NCBI GenBank assembly: GCA_013297875.1
Contig: JAAFIW010000006.1
Location: 1 to 64,000 of the forward strand
Length of the DNA stretch: 64,000 nucleotides
Direction of reading: 5' to 3'
DNA from: Comamonadaceae bacterium
GTDB lineage: Bacteria; Pseudomonadota; Gammaproteobacteria; Burkholderiales; Burkholderiaceae_C
The notes under the pieces were generated by a model. That model had not been told where the DNA came from. It did no database searches and saw nothing but the letters and a program-made list of their open reading frames with translations. Of this stretch, positions 54,803 through 64,000 are shown in pieces (within the stretch, counting starts at the first letter, position 1; each line of letters begins with the position of its first letter). A program made the position numbers and the translations under genes.

Positions 54803-57079
54803 ATGACACAAGGCACAAACACCCCAAAACGCAGAGTCTGGCTGGCCACTTGGCTCGGCACCGCCGTGCTGCTGACGGCCTGTGGCGGTGGTGGTAGCGA
54901 CGCGCCGATTGCGCCAGCACCACCCATTGCCGGGCAGGGCGCAGCGCCCTCCCCAGCGCCTTTGCCGCAACCGGCAGCATCCCAACCGTCAGCGGCAACG
55001 GCACCACCACCCGCCGCAAGCCCGTCTGTTGCGCCCGCACCGGCCCCCGGGCTCGCACCAACGCCTACCCCCACACCGGCACCGCTGCCAGCACCAGCAC
55101 CAGCACCAGCACCAGCACCCGCACCCGCACCCGCACCCGCACCCGCACCCGCACCCGCACCCGCCGAAGCTCCGGGCATACGCCTGATGCTGGGCACCAC
55201 AGCAGGTGCCGGCAATCTGGATGGAACCGGCGCTGTTGCGCGGTTTTCCTCACCCAGCGGTTTGGTTCGTGATGCGGCGGGTAACGTTTACGTGGCTGAT
55301 TCCGGTAATTTCACCGTGCGCAAAATCAGTCCGTCGGGCCAGGTCAGCACGCTGGCGGGTTCGGCGGGTGTGTCGGGTTTTGCCGACGGTGCTGGCAGTC
55401 AGGCGCGCTTTTCCAAGCTGGTGGGCATGGCGCTGGATCGGGCAGGCAATGTGTTTGTGACCGATGCAGGACGGATTCGCAAAGTAACACCTACGGGCTT
55501 GGTCAGCACACTGCAAGTCTCACCCACTAGCGATTTTGCGTTGGATGGCATCTACAACACCCTGGCGCTAGACGGTCAAGACAATTTCTACGCCACTTCG
55601 GGCAACAACATTCGCCGCGTCACGTCGGCAGGACGAACGTCGGTTTTTCCCCTGACGGGCAGCACGTATGTCCCCGATCGTGGCGTGTCTGACGATGGTC
55701 GCGCCGACCTGGCCAGCTTCAACTCGCCCTATGGAATAGCCGTGGCTGCCGACGGCTCGGTGTTCGTCTCGGAGCCGCCTAGCTGTGTGGTGCGAAAAAT
55801 CAGCATCCTGGGTTTTGTGAGCACGCTGGCGGGTACGGCCCTAGCGTGCGGCTCAACCGACGGCGTAGGCAACGCCGCGCGCCTGTCGTACCCCACAGGC
55901 ATGACGCTGGACGCTTCTGGTAACGTGGTGGTAGCCGAATCGGGCACGGCCCGGCTGCGCCAGATCAGCCCGCAAGGCGTCGTCACTACGCGGTCTGCCG
56001 CCTACCCTGTGGCCCAGCAGCCCAAATCCTTGGGCTACGTAGGTCTGGCACTGGATGCGCAAGGCGTCGCCTATGTGGCCGACACCGTGAACTCGCACAT
56101 TTTGAAAATAGAGCCAGACGGTGCGACAGCCATCTGGGCCGGATCCTCTGATAGTCGATCAGGACACGCCTCACTGGGCTTGTCTGCCGATGTGAAAGGC
56201 AACCTGTATGCCCTGCGAATCAGCCAAAATCCGTTGAGTCCACCGCCGCCTCCCTTTATGGGTGTTTGGGAGATCGTTCCCACCACTTACGATATTGTGA
56301 AAATCACGCCCGTCGGGGAGCTTGTGCCGCAACTCCGGTTTGAAGCCTGGATGCTTGACCCTCGTGTTGCTATTGACCGCCAGGGCAGTTTTTATTGGTT
56401 AAGCAACAGTACGGTTCGTCCGACAGGTACCGCAGTCATCAAGTCAACGCCCGCCGGCGTGACCAGCACCGTATGGTCTACCACCGCTTTTTCTCCCACT
56501 CGGGTGGAGGTGGACGGCAGCGGCAGCGTCTATGTGGCGGGCCTTGATGCAGAAAAGCCCAATCCGCTTTCGGGTATTGCCCACAGGGCTGTTCGCCTGG
56601 TCAAAATTTCACCTACGGGGGAAGTCCTGGATTTGCTGAAGGACGGGTTGCTCACCGTTCCTGCTGCAGCAAGCCGTATTGAGATTGCCTCGATCGGCAG
56701 TGGCAATCTGGTTATGGCCTCGGCTAACGCCGTTCGACTGGTCAGCCCGACTGGTTTGATTCAGCGTCTGGCGGGGCGCGACGGGCAGGTCGGGTCAACC
56801 GATGGCGCTGGCATGGCTGCTCTGTTCGGAGAAATCCGCAGTTTGGTGGCTGATCTGAACGGTAACCTCTATGCAGCAGACACCACCGCCAACACGGTGC
56901 GCAAAATTACCCCTCAGGGCGTGGTGACCACGGTGGTGGGCAAATCCGGCTCCATCGGCATGTCCCTGGGTGACTTGCCCGGCAGTCTGGCGCAACTCAA
57001 GGGGCTGGCACTAGGCCCTAACGGAAATACTTTGTATATCGATACGGATCAAGCCGTGTTGCGGGTGACGCTACCCTAA
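54803..57079 (+). CDS. NHL-repeat lipoprotein with an Ala-Pro linker
   Basis: 758 residues. Signal with lipobox LLTAC (C27). Residues about 33-125 form a Pro/Ala-rich linker, the last part of it (about 95-121) being a perfect PA repeat encoded by a GCACCC/GCACCA hexamer run. The rest is a propeller-type domain with recurring NVYVADSGNFTVRKISPSGQ, NLYAADTTANTVRKITPQG, STLAGSAG and (V/L)RLVSPTG-type motifs, as in NHL repeat proteins. Like the 8089-9132 protein it is a lipid-anchored propeller, but with a long spacer. Function unknown. Confidence 0.83.
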   Translation: MTQGTNTPKRRVWLATWLGTAVLLTACGGGGSDAPIAPAPPIAGQGAAPSPAPLPQPAASQPSAATAPPPAASPSVAPAPAPGLAPTPTPTPAPLPAPAPAPAPAPAPAPAPAPAPAPAPAEAPGIRLMLGTTAGAGNLDGTGAVARFSSPSGLVRDAAGNVYVADSGNFTVRKISPSGQVSTLAGSAGVSGFADGAGSQARFSKLVGMALDRAGNVFVTDAGRIRKVTPTGLVSTLQVSPTSDFALDGIYNTLALDGQDNFYATSGNNIRRVTSAGRTSVFPLTGSTYVPDRGVSDDGRADLASFNSPYGIAVAADGSVFVSEPPSCVVRKISILGFVSTLAGTALACGSTDGVGNAARLSYPTGMTLDASGNVVVAESGTARLRQISPQGVVTTRSAAYPVAQQPKSLGYVGLALDAQGVAYVADTVNSHILKIEPDGATAIWAGSSDSRSGHASLGLSADVKGNLYALRISQNPLSPPPPPFMGVWEIVPTTYDIVKITPVGELVPQLRFEAWMLDPRVAIDRQGSFYWLSNSTVRPTGTAVIKSTPAGVTSTVWSTTAFSPTRVEVDGSGSVYVAGLDAEKPNPLSGIAHRAVRLVKISPTGEVLDLLKDGLLTVPAAASRIEIASIGSGNLVMASANAVRLVSPTGLIQRLAGRDGQVGSTDGAGMAALFGEIRSLVADLNGNLYAADTTANTVRKITPQGVVTTVVGKSGSIGMSLGDLPGSLAQLKGLALGPNGNTLYIDTDQAVLRVTLP
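55088..55165 (+). repeat. In-frame hexanucleotide repeat in the NHL lipoprotein gene
   Basis: About 13 units of GCACCA then GCACCC, with few exceptions, coding Ala-Pro pairs. Such runs are prone to slippage in steps that preserve the frame, so linker length may vary between strains. Confidence 0.8.
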
Positions 57080-57767: not shown

Positions 57768-58265
57768 ATGCAACGCTTCACCATATCCCTTGACGCCACT
57801 CTGGCTGAGCAATTTGACCAGTTGATCGCCCAACGCAGCTATGGCAACCGGTCCGAAGCTGTGCGCGACTTGATCCGGGCCGAGCTGGGCACCGCCAGCT
57901 TGGGGGGCAGCGCCAGCTTGCAAGGCCAGGCCGCACGGCAGGTGGCCAAGTGGTGTGTGGCCACGGTGACCTATGTGTACGACCACCACGACCACACGGC
58001 AGCCCGGCGCGTGTTGAGCCTTCAACACGACCACCACGACCTGGTGGTCACCTGTAGCCATGTTCACCTGGATCACCACGACTGCCTGGAAACCGTGGTG
58101 CTGCGCGGCTCGCTGAAGGCTGTACAAGCCCTGGCTGAACAACTGGTTGCCTTGCGCGGCGTGCGCCATGGCAGCATCCATGTGGTGCCGTTGGATCAGG
58201 ATCAACCGCACAGACACGGCGCACCTGCAAGCGCCGCCCACACCCACCTGAAACCCCTGACTTAG
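57768..58265 (+). CDS. nikR: Nickel-responsive regulator NikR
   Basis: 165 residues. N-terminal ribbon-helix-helix (QRFTISLDATLAEQFDQLIA, SYGNRSEAVRDLIR), C-terminal ACT-like nickel domain. Expected nickel ligands H87, H98, H100, C106 (QHDHHD, SHVHLDHHDC) have the spacing of E. coli H76, H87, H89, C95. An extra His-rich tail (PHRHGAPASAAHTH) extends beyond the usual length. Neighbours: TonB-dependent receptor and an RND pump, so nickel homeostasis is likely. Confidence 0.92.
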   Translation: MQRFTISLDATLAEQFDQLIAQRSYGNRSEAVRDLIRAELGTASLGGSASLQGQAARQVAKWCVATVTYVYDHHDHTAARRVLSLQHDHHDLVVTCSHVHLDHHDCLETVVLRGSLKAVQALAEQLVALRGVRHGSIHVVPLDQDQPHRHGAPASAAHTHLKPLT

Positions 58266-58386
58266 CCGAGGTTTTTCGGGTTGCATCCAGTTGATGTGAT
58301 CGTGCGTAAGAAGTATGAATAATCCAGATTACGTCTTAAAGTCCCACCATTTCCAACCCGCTGCTGCGCAACAACCCGGTTCGCTG

Positions 58387-60456
58387 ATGACATTCCAACT
58401 CACACCCCTCACCGCACTCCTGGCCAGCATGGGCCTGTTGACCCCTTGTGCATTTGCACAGTCAGCCCCGGACGCTGCACCCGACAAGGTGCTCAATACC
58501 GTCACCGTCGAAGGCTCGCGCAACAGCCAGCTGGGTGTGGCCGATTCGGCCAATGGCGGTGTCATCACGCAGCAGCAGCTGGAGGCGCGCACCGTGTACC
58601 GCGCCGGTGAAATGCTGGAAGCCGTGCCGGGCCTGGTGGTCAGCCAGCACAGTGGCGAAGGCAAGGCCAACCAGTTTTATTTGCGTGGCTTCAACCTGGA
58701 CCATGGCACCGACTTGCGTACCACCATCGATGGCATGCCGGTCAATCAGCGCAGCCACGGCCACGGCCAGGGCTGGACCGATCTGAATTTTCTGATTCCC
58801 GAGCTGACGACCCGGCTCGATTACCGCAAAGGCCCGTTTTATGCGGCCGAAGGCGACTTTGCCTCGGCTGGTGCCGTCAGCGCCGTGTACGCCAACACGC
58901 TGGCCAAAGGCATTGCCAGCCTGGGCCTGGGGCAAAACGGTTTTCGGCGGGTGCTGCTGGCTGACTCACCCAAAGTGGGCAATGGCAACCTGCTGTATGC
59001 CATTGAGCTGTTTGGCAACGACGGGCCTTATCTGCGGCCCGACAACTACCGCAAATTCAACAGCGTGCTGCGCTACAGCCAGGGCACCGAAAAAGACGGC
59101 TTCAACATCACCGGAATGGCCTACAGCGCCAAATGGAACGCCACCGACCAGATTCCCAAGCGCGCGGTAGACGACGGCAGCCTGAACCGCTTTGGTTTGA
59201 TCGACCCCACCGACGGCGGCAAGGCCGAGCGCTTCAGCCTGTCGGGCGCCTGGGCACAGTCGAGCGCCAACAGCGCCACCAAAATCAATGCCTACGCCAT
59301 CTATAACAAGCTGGATCTGTTTTCCAACTTCACCTATTTTCTGGACGACCCGGTCAATGGCGACCAGTTTGCCCAGCCCGACAAGCGCTACACCACCGGC
59401 TTGAACGCCAGCCACACCTGGCTGACGACGCTGTTGGGCCGCGAATCGGAAACCACCGTGGGTCTGCAACTGCAAAACGACAACATCTACAACGGCCTGT
59501 ACAGCACCGCAGCCCGCCAGCGCATCAGCACCACGCGGCAGGACCACATCGTGGAAAGCAACCTGGGCCTCTACGCCGAAAACACCACCTTCTGGAGCGA
59601 CAAAGTGCGCACCGTGGCGGGCTTGCGGGCCGACAGCTACCGCATGAACGTGCGCAGCGACAACGCTTTGAACTCAGGCTCGGTCAACGGCAGCCTGGGC
59701 AGCCCCAAGCTGGCGTTGATCCTGGGCCCGTGGAACAAAACCGAGTTTTACGTCAACTGGGGACGCGGCTTTCACAGCAACGATGCGCGCGGTGCCACCA
59801 TTCGCGTCGACCCCAAAACCGGCGACCCAGCTGACCGCGTGCCGCCACTGGTGCGCTCCAAGGGCTTTGAGCTGGGCGTGCGCAGCGAAATCATTCCCGG
59901 CCTGCAAAGCGCACTGTCGCTGTACCAGCTGGACTTTGCCTCCGAGCTGCTGTTTGTCGGCGACGCCGGCACAACCGAAGCCAGCCGCCCCAGCCGCCGC
60001 ACCGGCATTGAATTTTCCAACTACTACCGCGCCACGAAATGGCTCACGGTGGACGCCGACATTGCGTTTGCCCGCGCCCGCTTTCGCGATGCCAACCCGG
60101 TGGGCAACCGCATTCCTGGCGCGGTAGAAGGCGTCGCCTCAGTGGCGCTGGCGGTGGACAAGCTGGGGCCTTACTACGGCGCGCTGCAACTGCGCTACTT
60201 TGGTCCCCGGCCTTTGGTTGAAGACAACTCAGTGCGCAGTAAAAAAACCGTCACGCTGAACGGCCGTATCGGCTACAAATTCAGCCCCAGCCTTCGCGTG
60301 GAGCTGGAAGGCTTCAACCTGACGAATCGCAAAGATTCCGCCATCGACTACTACTACACCTCACGCCTGGCCAATGAGGCAGCTGCGGTGGATGACATTC
60401 ACTTTCACCCGATTGAATCGCGCTCATTCCGGTTGACCTTGATTGCCAATTTTTGA
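58387..60456 (+). CDS. TonB-dependent outer-membrane receptor, probably for nickel or a metal complex
   Basis: 689 residues from ATG 58387, the start of the signal peptide (MTFQLTPLTALLASMGLLTP, cleaved near AFAQS); the upstream start 58315 is less likely. A plug domain starts around 35-150 with VTVEGSRNSQ as a TonB-box-like start and RGFNLDHGTDLRTTIDGMPV. A beta-barrel follows, with the C-terminal F (LIANF) of outer-membrane proteins. The plug has HGHGQG near the extracellular side. Downstream of nikR in the same direction; related receptors next to nikR are thought to import nickel. Specificity inferred. Confidence 0.82.
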   Translation: MTFQLTPLTALLASMGLLTPCAFAQSAPDAAPDKVLNTVTVEGSRNSQLGVADSANGGVITQQQLEARTVYRAGEMLEAVPGLVVSQHSGEGKANQFYLRGFNLDHGTDLRTTIDGMPVNQRSHGHGQGWTDLNFLIPELTTRLDYRKGPFYAAEGDFASAGAVSAVYANTLAKGIASLGLGQNGFRRVLLADSPKVGNGNLLYAIELFGNDGPYLRPDNYRKFNSVLRYSQGTEKDGFNITGMAYSAKWNATDQIPKRAVDDGSLNRFGLIDPTDGGKAERFSLSGAWAQSSANSATKINAYAIYNKLDLFSNFTYFLDDPVNGDQFAQPDKRYTTGLNASHTWLTTLLGRESETTVGLQLQNDNIYNGLYSTAARQRISTTRQDHIVESNLGLYAENTTFWSDKVRTVAGLRADSYRMNVRSDNALNSGSVNGSLGSPKLALILGPWNKTEFYVNWGRGFHSNDARGATIRVDPKTGDPADRVPPLVRSKGFELGVRSEIIPGLQSALSLYQLDFASELLFVGDAGTTEASRPSRRTGIEFSNYYRATKWLTVDADIAFARARFRDANPVGNRIPGAVEGVASVALAVDKLGPYYGALQLRYFGPRPLVEDNSVRSKKTVTLNGRIGYKFSPSLRVELEGFNLTNRKDSAIDYYYTSRLANEAAAVDDIHFHPIESRSFRLTLIANF

Positions 60457-60500
60457 GGCTATCGGCGCAAGCGACAGCCAGCAAGGCTTGAGCAAAGTGA

Positions 60501-60884
60501 TCACTTCACCTCGAAGCGGGCGGTAGCAGCGGGCTTGCCCGCAAGGGTCACCACGGCAATGCCCTTGGTGCCTTTGGCTACTTTGAAGCTGCCCTTGGCT
60601 TCGAATTTGTCACCCGAGGGGGCCAGTTCCACATCAGACTTTTCTGTGCCATTGAGTAAGGTGACTTTGGCCTTGCCACCGTCCAGCTTGACAGCCTTGC
60701 CGTGGTCATTGACGTAGACCTGAATCAGGTCAGGCTTGGCCACGATTTCAAAGTCCAGCGCCTTGGTTTCGACAAAGATGCCACCGTGCTTGGCGGTGTG
60801 ATCGTCTTTGGCCAGCGCGGCAGACGCGCCGATGGCGAACGATGCCAGGGTTGCGATGGAGATAGCGACGATTTTCAGTTTCAT
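60501..60884 (-). CDS. Small periplasmic protein of the RND operon
   Basis: 127 residues, signal peptide ending near AALAKDD. Mature part is beta-rich, with DHTAKHGG and a conserved-looking KPDLIQVYVNDHGKAVKLDG. It has His residues near the N-terminus but no full metal site. The RND pump gene ends 39 bases upstream, in the same direction. A periplasmic metal chaperone or adaptor accessory is likely; no family name is recognised. Confidence 0.65.
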   Translation of the reverse strand: MKLKIVAISIATLASFAIGASAALAKDDHTAKHGGIFVETKALDFEIVAKPDLIQVYVNDHGKAVKLDGGKAKVTLLNGTEKSDVELAPSGDKFEAKGSFKVAKGTKGIAVVTLAGKPAATARFEVK

Positions 60885-60923
60885 GGTGAGTGCCTTTCTT
60901 GGGTTGGCGGTTGAGGGAACAGG

Positions 60924-63900
60924 TTAAAACGACTCAGAGCCTGAATCGGCCACCAGCGCTTCAATCGGCTTGCGGCCGAATAGCGCCACCATGGCGGGTG
61001 TGAGAAAAGAGTCCAGCAGCGTGGAGGTGATGAGGCCCGAAAAAATCACCACTGCCACCGGGTGCAAGATTTCAGTGCCCGGCATGTCGGCCTCAAATAG
61101 CAGCGGTGCCAGCGCCAGCGCGGCGACCAGCGCGGTCATCAGCACAGGCGTCAGCCGCTCTTTTGAGCCCCGCAGCAGCATCTGGGTGTCGAAGTTCTCG
61201 CCTTCGAATGCACACAGGTTGATGTAGTGCGACACCTTCAAGATGCCGTTGCGAATGGCGATGCCCGCCAGCGTGATGAAGCCCACCAGCGCTGCCACGG
61301 AGAGTGGCTGGCCCGATAGCCACAGCCCCACCACCGCGCCGACGAGCGCCAGCGGAATATTGGCCATGATGATGGCGGCCAGCACGCCCGAGCGGTAGCG
61401 TGAGTACAGGATGAGAAAGATCATCGCCACCGAGGCCAGCGACAAGAGGCCAATCAAACGTGAAGCCTCTTCCTGCGCTTGAAACTGCCCACCGATGGTG
61501 ATGAAGTAGCCCTCGGGTAGCTTGGTCTCGGCAATGGCGGCGCGCATGTCGGCCACTACTTCACTGAGCGCCCGGCCCTGCGCATTGGCCGACAGCACAA
61601 TGCGGCGGCGGCCATCGTCGCGGCTGACCTGGTTGGGGCCGTCGGCTTCCTGCACGCTGGCCAGCTGGCTTAAGGGCACGCGGCCTGCGGGCGTGTCGAT
61701 CATCAAGTTGCGCAGGCCTTCGATGCCGCGTGAGGCCTCGGGCAGGCGCAGCACCAGGTTGAAGCGGCGGCTGCCTTCCACCACTTGCGTCACCTTTTCG
61801 CCGTCAATCAGCACCTGCAACTCTTGCAGCAGCTTGGCCGGCGCTATGCCCAGCCCCAGCGCACGGTCGTAGTCCACCTGCACGCGAATTTGCGGCGTGA
61901 GCACCTGCTTCTCCACCTCCAGGTCTACCACGCCGGGCAGCGCCGACAGCTTCAGGCGCAGCGCTTCGGCCTGCCCGCGCAAATTGTCCAGGTCGTCGCC
62001 GTAAATCTTGATGGCAATTTGCGAGCGCACGCCCGACAGCATGTGGTCAATGCGGTGGCTGATGGGCTGGCCGATGCCAATGGCTGCAGGCAAGCTGGCC
62101 AGACGCGCCCGAATGTCGGCATACACCTGCTCCACGCTGCGCTCGCTGCGTTTGAGCTTGATATCCAGCTCGGATACATGTACCCCTTCGGCATGTTCAT
62201 CCAACTCGGCGCGGCCCGAGCGGCGGCCCACATGCTCGGCCTCGGGCACACCTTTCAATGCGCTTTCGGCAATGGCACCGATGCGGGTGGATTCGGTCAG
62301 GGTGGTGCCGGGGTTCAGGCGTATGCCCACCAAAGCCACGCCTTCGTTGAACGGCGGCAAAAACGTGGTGGGGAAAAACGGCACCGCCGCCATCGCCGCC
62401 AGCGCAGCAATGACACCAGCGCCCAGCCAACGGCGCGGGTGGCGCAGCACTGCTGCCAGCATACGCGTGTACCGCGCTTTCACCCACACCTGGGCGCGCG
62501 TGTCGCCGTGGTGCAGGCTTTTCATGTTGGGCAGCAGGTAGTAAGCCAGTACCGGCGTGACGGTGACGGACACCACCATGGAGGCCAGCATGGCCACGAT
62601 GTAGGCAACCGCCAGGGGCTGCATCAAGCGGCCTTCAATGCCGGGCAAAAAGAACAGCGGAATCAGCACCAGCACCACAATCACCGTGGCAATCACGATG
62701 CCCGAGCGCACTTCTAAAGTGGCTTTGGCAATCAACTCCAGCGGCCCCAAGCGTTTCTCGGGGTGCGCCGCCCTGTCCAGCTTCAATCGGCGCAGCACGT
62801 TTTCCACCCCCACCACCGCATCGTCGACCAGCTCGCCAATGGCAATCGTCAAGCCGCCCAAGGTCATGGTGTTGATGGAAAAACCAAAGTACTTGAACAC
62901 CAGCACCGTGGCCATGAACGACAGCGGAATGGCCACCAGCGAAATCGCTGTGGTGCGCACATTGGCCAGAAAAAAGTACAGCACCACGGCCACTACCGCA
63001 AAGGCCAGCATCAACTTGCCTTTGAGCGTGTCAATTGACGACTCAATAAAGCTGGCTTGCCGCATGGTCACCTGCGGTTGGCCCATGCCTGCCGGCATGC
63101 CTTTGGCCATTTCTTGCAAGGCCGATTCAATCTGCTGCGTCAGCTTGACGGTGTCGGCGTCCGGTTGTTTCTGGATGCCCAGAATCACCGCTGGCTGACC
63201 GTTCAAGCCCGCGTCTCCGCGCTTGATGGCGGCGGCAAACTTCACATCAGCCACCTGGCTGAGCTGAATCGGCTTGCCGTTTTGAAAGGCCACCGGCAAG
63301 CGCTGCAGGTCTTCCAGCCGCGTCGTGCGACCAATATTGCGAATCAAATATTCACGCGAATTGAGCTCCAGAAAACCGCCACTGGTGTTGCTGGAAAAGC
63401 CCTTGAGCGCCGCTTCAATCGCTTCCAGATCAACCTTCAGCGCCGCCATGCGCGCCGTATCGGGCTGCACCTGGTACTGCCGCACCTCGCCACCAATGGG
63501 CACCACCTGGGCCACGCCAGGCAAGGTCAGCAAGCGCGGGCGCATCACAAAGTCGGCATATTCGCGCACCGCCATCGGGCTGATTTTGGCCGTATCAATC
63601 GGCAACGCCAGCAGCATGATCTCGCCCATGATGGAGCTGATCGGCCCCATGCCCACATGCTGCACGCCCTGGGGTAACTGCTCGCGCACGTTTTGCAGCC
63701 GCTCGCCCACCATTTGCCGGGCGCGGTAGATGTCGGTTTTCCAGTCAAACGTCACGTAGACGAAAGACAGGCCCACGCTGGAGACCGAGCGAATCGATTC
63801 CACACCGGGGATGCCGCCCATCGCAATTTCCAGCGGCGCAGTGATGAGTTGCTCCACCTCTTCCGGGGCCATGCCGCCGGCTTCGGCTTGCAGGGTCACG

Positions 63901-64000
63901 GTGGGTTTGTTCAGGTCGGGGAACACATCGACCGGCATCTTGACCAGCGTGAGCGCACCCACCACCAGCAACACCACCGACAGCACGATCACCATCAGCC
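60924..64000 (-). CDS. Heavy-metal RND efflux pump (CzcA/CusA class), runs off the right edge
   Basis: At least 1,023 residues visible; only about 15 N-terminal residues are missing at the window edge. Inner-membrane proton-driven pump of a tripartite system. The charged helix-4 motif is AIGELVDDAVVGVENVLRR, close to but different from DFGxxxDGAxxxVEN of the Zn/Co/Cd pumps and from the Cu/Ag CusA form; a distinct metal specificity is likely. Twelve membrane helices and two large periplasmic loops, and the typical GIAIRNGILKVSHYI stretch near the end. The nikR neighbourhood suggests nickel or cobalt. Periplasmic adaptor and outer-membrane factor genes should lie to the right. Confidence 0.9.
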   Translation of the reverse strand, partial: LMVIVLSVVLLVVGALTLVKMPVDVFPDLNKPTVTLQAEAGGMAPEEVEQLITAPLEIAMGGIPGVESIRSVSSVGLSFVYVTFDWKTDIYRARQMVGERLQNVREQLPQGVQHVGMGPISSIMGEIMLLALPIDTAKISPMAVREYADFVMRPRLLTLPGVAQVVPIGGEVRQYQVQPDTARMAALKVDLEAIEAALKGFSSNTSGGFLELNSREYLIRNIGRTTRLEDLQRLPVAFQNGKPIQLSQVADVKFAAAIKRGDAGLNGQPAVILGIQKQPDADTVKLTQQIESALQEMAKGMPAGMGQPQVTMRQASFIESSIDTLKGKLMLAFAVVAVVLYFFLANVRTTAISLVAIPLSFMATVLVFKYFGFSINTMTLGGLTIAIGELVDDAVVGVENVLRRLKLDRAAHPEKRLGPLELIAKATLEVRSGIVIATVIVVLVLIPLFFLPGIEGRLMQPLAVAYIVAMLASMVVSVTVTPVLAYYLLPNMKSLHHGDTRAQVWVKARYTRMLAAVLRHPRRWLGAGVIAALAAMAAVPFFPTTFLPPFNEGVALVGIRLNPGTTLTESTRIGAIAESALKGVPEAEHVGRRSGRAELDEHAEGVHVSELDIKLKRSERSVEQVYADIRARLASLPAAIGIGQPISHRIDHMLSGVRSQIAIKIYGDDLDNLRGQAEALRLKLSALPGVVDLEVEKQVLTPQIRVQVDYDRALGLGIAPAKLLQELQVLIDGEKVTQVVEGSRRFNLVLRLPEASRGIEGLRNLMIDTPAGRVPLSQLASVQEADGPNQVSRDDGRRRIVLSANAQGRALSEVVADMRAAIAETKLPEGYFITIGGQFQAQEEASRLIGLLSLASVAMIFLILYSRYRSGVLAAIIMANIPLALVGAVVGLWLSGQPLSVAALVGFITLAGIAIRNGILKVSHYINLCAFEGENFDTQMLLRGSKERLTPVLMTALVAALALAPLLFEADMPGTEILHPVAVVIFSGLITSTLLDSFLTPAMVALFGRKPIEALVADSGSESF

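Follow-up and report, generated by a model that had tools for sequence, protein, structure and literature searches.

The window described here, 64,000 bp in length, comprises positions 1-64000 of contig 6 (JAAFIW010000006.1) of a Comamonadaceae bacterium, and the reading was extended rightwards in a record, L007, that covers contig positions 57001-77000. At the right end of the window, a pssA-like gene, nikR and a gene for a TonB receptor follow one another on the + strand, with the start of nikR 6 bases past the stop of the pssA-like gene. The - strand carries an operon that encodes a 149-amino-acid protein (DUF2946), the outer-membrane efflux protein NieC (418 amino acids, OEP), a 569-amino-acid adaptor, the heavy-metal efflux (HME) pump NieA of the resistance-nodulation-division (RND) type and a protein of 127 amino acids. 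The receptor gene and the gene for this small protein converge, end to end. A first-pass annotation had described nikR, the receptor, the small gene and the pump as open frames, and all four are so; past the pump, the sequence to the right of the window supplies the adaptor gene, the outer-membrane efflux gene and the small DUF2946 gene.

We consider it rather probable that the locus consists of two units: a NikR-TonB receptor pair for nickel uptake, and a tripartite metal exporter that works with a small periplasmic carrier.

The nie operon and its pump

The pump matches ACR_tran in Pfam and TIGR00914 (CusA/CzcA), the latter at 712 bits against a cut-off of 701. Its helix-4 motif, AIGELVDDAVVGVEN, differs from those of CzcA (DFGIIIDGAVVIVEN), CnrA (DFGLIIDGAVIIVEN) and CusA (AVGAMVDAAIVMIEN), which upholds the first-pass observation that the motif is unlike the Czc and Cus forms; the pump type, however, already has a name. 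The operon nieIC-cep-nieBA of Cupriavidus neocaledonicus STM 6070 is counted as RND-HME5 and has been proposed as class 6 (PMC7060636), and the NieA type was proposed by its authors, without a test, for nickel export (PMC7060636 section 18). The operon of the window and that of STM 6070 share cep between nieC and nieB as well as the motifs HAEGVH and HRxDH. By operon and motifs, not by the helix-4 letters, the pump is assigned to the NieA type (HME5/'class 6'), and because of this match it was rejected as a new type.

Related pump loci were taken as the best 80 of at least 569 confirmed pump matches. Of 82 pump copies, 81 have HAEGVH and 79 have H[RK]xDH, with both motifs in the pump of the window, and 78 read AIG[GE]LVDDAVV in helix 4; the helix-4 string VDDAVV was not found in a literature search. 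A tree of 39 pumps takes in 18 of the 80 NieA loci and 11 of 13 loci in which the small protein accompanies another pump (see below). The 19 NieA sequences in it form a single clade with support of 100/100, separate from CzcA, CnrA and CusA; the program warns of long branches for CusA, CnrA and other RND pumps. NieA of the window is 31-32% identical to CzcA and CnrA (32% to CzcA) and lacks the DFGxxxDGAxxxVEN motif of CzcA (HME1) and CnrA (HME2). Met 573, 623 and 672 of CusA, which we take to be its copper-binding site, align with Gly, Val and the last His of HRIDH in the pump (3t51/3k07). Because the other five RND pumps of the genome are distant (23-27% identical to NieA) and lack the NieA motifs, NieA is the only HME-type RND pump found there. 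The distance of NieA from the cyanobacterial NrsA is taken from PMC7060636.

The gene order nieC-cep-nieB-nieA-small gene recurs across the 80 related loci. In STM 6070, cep and nieB are two genes; in the window genome, they are fused into a single 569-amino-acid frame (L007 7050-8759, - strand), as they are in two Polaromonas loci (L039, L040) and in L172, a locus with an 88% identical NieA. They are separate in 73 of 81 loci, and cep was undetected in five. In the fused protein, the domains follow one another as in CzcB and are separated by a hydrophobic stretch (helix 164-198 of the cep model). The end of the operon also differs: no gene is named after nieA in STM 6070 (PMC7060636 section 18), whereas here and in 71 of the 80 relatives the small protein is encoded at that place. 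The 149-amino-acid gene is assigned as nieI by position and DUF2946 alone.

The CzcCBA system of C. metallidurans pMOL30 (L254) is likewise a tripartite HME-RND pump, and its adaptor CzcB bears an N-terminal domain that is homologous, by profile, to the small protein. Pumps of relatives that are 77-79% identical to CzcA are also followed by the small protein.

Some observations on the surroundings of the operon can be added. Nie operons in L096, L097, L101 and L109 (5991-12600), records assigned to Stutzerimonas, Xenophilus, a gammaproteobacterial metagenome-assembled genome and Comamonas, are 99.9-100% identical over 6.6 kb, which points either to recent transfer or to contamination. Just before the nie operon, L007 10536-10703 holds two similar stretches, GTCATTTGTCAT and GTCATCTGTCAT, a possible regulator site. 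On the + strand, divergent from the operon (L007 10703-13481), lie a frame rich in His and a TonB receptor that resembles ZnuD (271.7 bits, below the cut-off of 950). None of the 80 other pump loci matches this receptor at E 1e-15, and L064 gives one weak match.

The 127-amino-acid protein

Searches at E 0.001 matched the small protein to no Pfam or NCBIfam family, in keeping with its first-pass description as uncharacterised. Pfam gave no credible match either for an alignment of 50 small proteins (that of the window and 49 of 63 extracted sequences) or for 33 of 62 cep sequences. Profile comparison with the CzcB-type N-terminal domain of 11 adaptors, on the other hand, gives an hhalign probability of 94.4 and a score of 44.6 over 47 columns; the best score of 60 column shuffles is 24.8. 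The score against cep, with signal regions removed, is 27.7 (at most 17.7 in 40 shuffles). A hidden Markov model (HMM) of the small protein also detects the cep frame (E <0.001) in eight of the 80 loci and reaches CzcB of CH34 at E 0.004 at best. The profiles show the small protein to be homologous to the N-terminal domain of CzcB and, less strongly, to cep; no earlier description of its homology with the CzcB domain was found in a search of the open-access literature.

The AlphaFold model of the small protein is a beta-sandwich with a mean pLDDT of 86.2. When this predicted model is aligned with VIA-align, the nearest solved fold is Helicobacter pylori CrdA (Z 10.8, root-mean-square deviation 2.4, 92 residues). 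FetP follows at Z 9.9, a tie with CrdA by the rule of the tool, then HftA at 9.5 and a DUF4426 protein at 9.4; unrelated rows begin at Z 8.8. The cep model (pLDDT 84.4) also places CrdA (Z 11.8) and FetP (11.2) in a tie. CopC is not among the 50 fold matches listed for the small protein and has Z 6.4-6.8 for cep. Sequence comparison of the small protein with solved chains gave no credible match; those to designed 'Pizza' propellers (about 23 residues) and two immune proteins were judged to be chance. A profile search of cep against solved chains gave no match.

Conserved residues are G34, G35 and E46 (50 of 50 sequences), H61 (49) and H33 (39). The protein starts His-rich: at least two His precede GG in 44 of 50 sequences. 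Besides the start, no Met or Cys column is conserved in at least 44. With its His-rich start, conserved E46 and H61 and lack of conserved Met or Cys, the small protein seems better suited to a borderline divalent ion than to copper(I).

In 71 of the 80 pump loci, an HMM profile places the small protein no more than 1.6 kb 3' of nieA, and this co-occurrence agrees with the partnership suggested at first pass. Among 150 family genomes, that of the window included, it was found in 51. The partnership is not exclusive, and what was named at first pass as refuting the proposal, the small protein apart from this pump, is in part observed. Besides the copy in the window there are 74 others: 55 follow a NieA-type pump, 13 are by another HME/RND pump (one of them 2.8 kb away) and six are by none, one being at a contig end and five being weak matches of 36-55 bits. 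The 13 other pumps are mostly CzcA-like: nine have 77-79% identity to the CzcA of CH34, another two are partial and show the DFG motif, and the last two share 42-43% identity with CzcA. On an Enterobacter cloacae plasmid, the small protein follows CzcA and a CDF gene. It therefore accompanies more than one class of HME pump and represents a genuine, unnamed accessory family of wide occurrence.

NikR and the TonB receptor

The identity of NikR is given by NF002815 (153.6 bits, cut-off 83) and by RHH_1 and NikR_C in Pfam; with TIGR02793 it scores 123.5 bits, below the cut-off of 175 for that model. The receptor has the TonB plug and barrel of Pfam. In a scan of the 150 family genomes, 28 matched NikR at E ≤0.001, the weakest doubtful. 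The best 20 of the 27 non-own matches were taken as NikR loci, four of which are less than 11 kb long. A receptor match adjoins nikR in nine of the 20, with more than 300 bits in four (L147, L159, L160, L166) and a weak 52-72 bits in the remaining five. L158 has a further strong match about 6 kb from nikR.

The sequence GTATGA-N15-TCATAC is found intact at six sites, in six of the 20 NikR loci; if one mismatch is allowed, there are ten sites in eight loci. At other spacings, also with at most one mismatch, there are none at 10-14, 19 or 20, two at 16, one at 17 and one at 18. None of 60 permuted half-sites, searched in the same way (spacing 15, no mismatch), gave a site, against six for the real box. 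Seven of the eight box-bearing loci have the box between nikR and the receptor match; in the eighth, L154, no receptor match was found. E. coli nikA is preceded by identical half-sites at a spacing of 16, compared with 15 in the relatives here. An earlier guess for the box, GTGTNAC, was dropped after it found no match in 245 loci. An AT-rich, box-like site on C35, which precedes an integrase-like frame, was taken as chance and also set aside.

The window has GTATGA-N15-TCTTAA across the listed ATG of the receptor. Because the box overlaps this start codon, and because the ATG at 58387 precedes TFQLTPLTALLAS, a signal-peptide-like sequence that fits better than the start listed at 58315, the true start of the receptor is probably 58387. 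With a receptor beside nikR and NikR boxes in relatives, nikR and the TonB receptor look like a nickel-uptake unit, and the first-pass view of this pair gains support. The genome encodes urease and HupE/UreJ proteins, and NiFe hydrogenase, NicO and CbiM have no match in it at E 0.001; urease is therefore the likely use of the imported nickel. A similar placement of NikR next to a TonB receptor is seen with NikR-linked nickel receptors, FecA3, FrpB4 and Rgel01002199 among others (PMC11247825). For Rubrivivax or betaproteobacteria, the literature search turned up no account of NikR linked to TonB receptors.

Two probably separate units

Import, sensing and export of probably the same metal had been joined at first pass in one module. 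The relatives do not bear this out. NikR and this receptor have no match in the 80 pump loci, 63 of which extend at least 5 kb on the side equivalent to that of nikR, and none of the 74 loci that carry the small protein matches either of them; the other two receptors of L007 are weakly matched in three pump loci (L041, L063, L064). The pump, in turn, is absent from all 20 NikR loci examined. In the 600 to 1300 bases before nieC in each of 70 of the 80 nie loci, there is no NikR box with at most one mismatch and there is one with two mismatches. Before the nie operon of the window, no box is found even when three mismatches are allowed. With no boxes and a neighbourhood that relatives do not share, joint control of receptor and pump by NikR was rejected, and nikR/receptor and the pump operon appear to be two separate, adjoining units.

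In the first unit, NikR with nickel would repress the TonB receptor through the box just upstream of its start. The second would be a tripartite heavy-metal exporter, nieI-nieC-(cep-nieB)-nieA-small gene. In the periplasm, NieA would pick up a divalent cation, whether nickel, cobalt, zinc or cadmium, at a site that contains His (HAEGVH, HRIDH). Proton antiport by way of the acidic helix-4 residues would then drive export of the ion through NieB and NieC. The 127-amino-acid protein is best read as a secreted, single-domain periplasmic metal carrier of the His type for HME pumps. It might hold metal on its His-rich N-terminal stretch together with E46 and H61, and pass the ion on, either to cep, the related domain in the adaptor, or straight to NieA, as CusF does to CusBA. 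A divalent cation is the probable substrate for export, with nickel a possibility and zinc, cadmium or cobalt just as possible.

Two known proteins invite comparison. CrdA, from the CrdA-CrdB-CzcB-CzcA copper system of H. pylori, is also a small secreted beta-sandwich of an RND metal-pump system, but it is Met-rich, has no His and binds copper (PMC9182242), whereas the present protein is His-rich and has no conserved Met. CusF of the Cus copper pump is a small periplasmic carrier that feeds an HME pump (PMC8277102); the likeness is in the proposed role, and CusF handles another class of metal.

Alternative explanations

Several results weigh against the two-unit reading or parts of it. The NikR box of the window is degenerate, with two mismatches, and L007 holds three such sites where 1.82 are expected; as this is no excess by count, the support for the box comes from its place and spacing, which are those of the clear boxes in relatives, and NikR may control the receptor in the window genome. 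The small protein would be dispensable for the pump, since 9 of the 80 pump loci are without it, two of which have less than 900 bases past the pump. Cep matches the CzcB domain weakly (score 23.0; best of 60 shuffles 18.4), and this, together with the tie between CrdA and FetP as nearest fold, lowers confidence slightly. Foldseek alone ranks a carbohydrate-binding module above CrdA for the small protein, and for cep it places an oligosaccharyltransferase subunit first and CrdA fifth. A common fold is in itself no proof of metal binding; CrdA binds through Met, whereas neither Met nor Cys is conserved in the small protein.

Neighbouring genes give mixed hints on the metal. A CadR-like regulator is matched in 32 and a P1B-ATPase in 28 of the 80 pump loci, which would point to cadmium, lead or zinc (one representative of each is named by NCBIfam, and the BLAST counts may take in related regulators and pumps). 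A CnrT-like gene, 49-59% identical over its main stretch to a pMOL28 gene labelled nickel diffusion facilitator, adjoins the operon in seven, which would point to nickel. A metal-sensing repressor with an MFS pump occurs in six, every one a closely related operon copy. It is a real possibility, though held at distinctly lower probability than the two-unit reading, that the pump mainly exports zinc, cadmium, lead or cobalt, much as CzcCBA does, and adjoins nikR by chance. The CadR-like and P1B-ATPase genes are in line with this, as are the sharing of the small protein with CzcA operons, the position of NieA as the sole HME-type pump found and the gene in nieI position of a relative, L107, which resembles CzcI (NF045614, 75 bits, below the cut-off of 100). 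Against it stand the CnrT-like gene, found in L172 as well as in the seven loci, and the fact that neighbouring genes are unproved partners. We think it unlikely that the small protein is instead a metal sponge or periplasmic signalling factor that does not dock on the pump; its His-rich N-terminus, its CrdA- and FetP-like fold and the six copies with no pump found nearby would suit such a role, but it ends two different kinds of HME operon and is homologous to a domain built into the CzcB adaptor. Least probable by far is a single nickel-buffering module in which NikR controls both receptor and pump and the small protein buffers nickel between them. Such a module would agree with the physical adjacency of nikR, receptor and pump, the nickel export proposed for the NieA type (PMC7060636) and the CnrT-like gene beside seven nie operons; however, the units are on convergent strands, their neighbourhood recurs in none of the pump or NikR loci, NikR boxes are missing before nieC and the small protein also accompanies CzcA pumps. 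What stands of the first-pass proposal is the NikR-TonB receptor pair as a probable nickel-uptake unit and a small protein that goes with the pump. The case illustrates that gene neighbourhood alone may mislead, as a nickel sensor and a pump seem here to be just side by side.

The two-unit reading can be carried one step further, tentatively and with a little less than an even chance of being right. HME pumps might use a single metal-handling beta-sandwich domain in interchangeable forms, as a modular relay for divalent cations. The forms would be one built into CzcB, a membrane-anchored one (cep), one fused to NieB (the window, the two Polaromonas loci and L172) and the free, secreted 127-amino-acid protein. 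Delivery of divalent cations within the periplasm to CzcA-type pumps is less settled than that of copper via CusF. If the relay exists, it would be a divalent-cation counterpart of CusF, with the free form serving two separate pump classes. No description of a modular relay domain was found in the literature search. As an unnamed and widespread single-domain protein that closes two kinds of HME operon and is related to the N-terminal domain of CzcB, the 127-amino-acid protein offers a simple handle on metal hand-over.

Features of the locus

Table 1. Features at the right end of the window and in its continuation (window positions unless L007 is named)
Feature	Position	Strand	Remarks
nikR	57768-58265	+	165 aa; NF002815 and NikR_C above cut-off
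Degenerate candidate NikR box, GTATGA-N15-TCTTAA	58313-58339	+	10/12 half-site bases; place and spacing as in relatives
TonB-dependent outer-membrane receptor	58387-60456 (listed start 58315)	+	Pfam Plug and barrel; probable start, by reading the sequence
Predicted exported beta-sandwich protein, 127 aa, last nie operon gene, CzcB N-terminal-domain homologue by profile	60501-60884	-	
nieA, HME-RND permease, 1037 aa	60924 to beyond 64000	-	first codon at contig position 64037
Adaptor (cep + nieB, one frame), nieC, gene in nieI position	L007 7050-10535	-	right of the window

The pssA-like gene is itself preceded by a frame of 758 amino acids (window 54803-57079), which by eye is lipoprotein-like, with a long Ala-Pro linker and NHL-like repeats.

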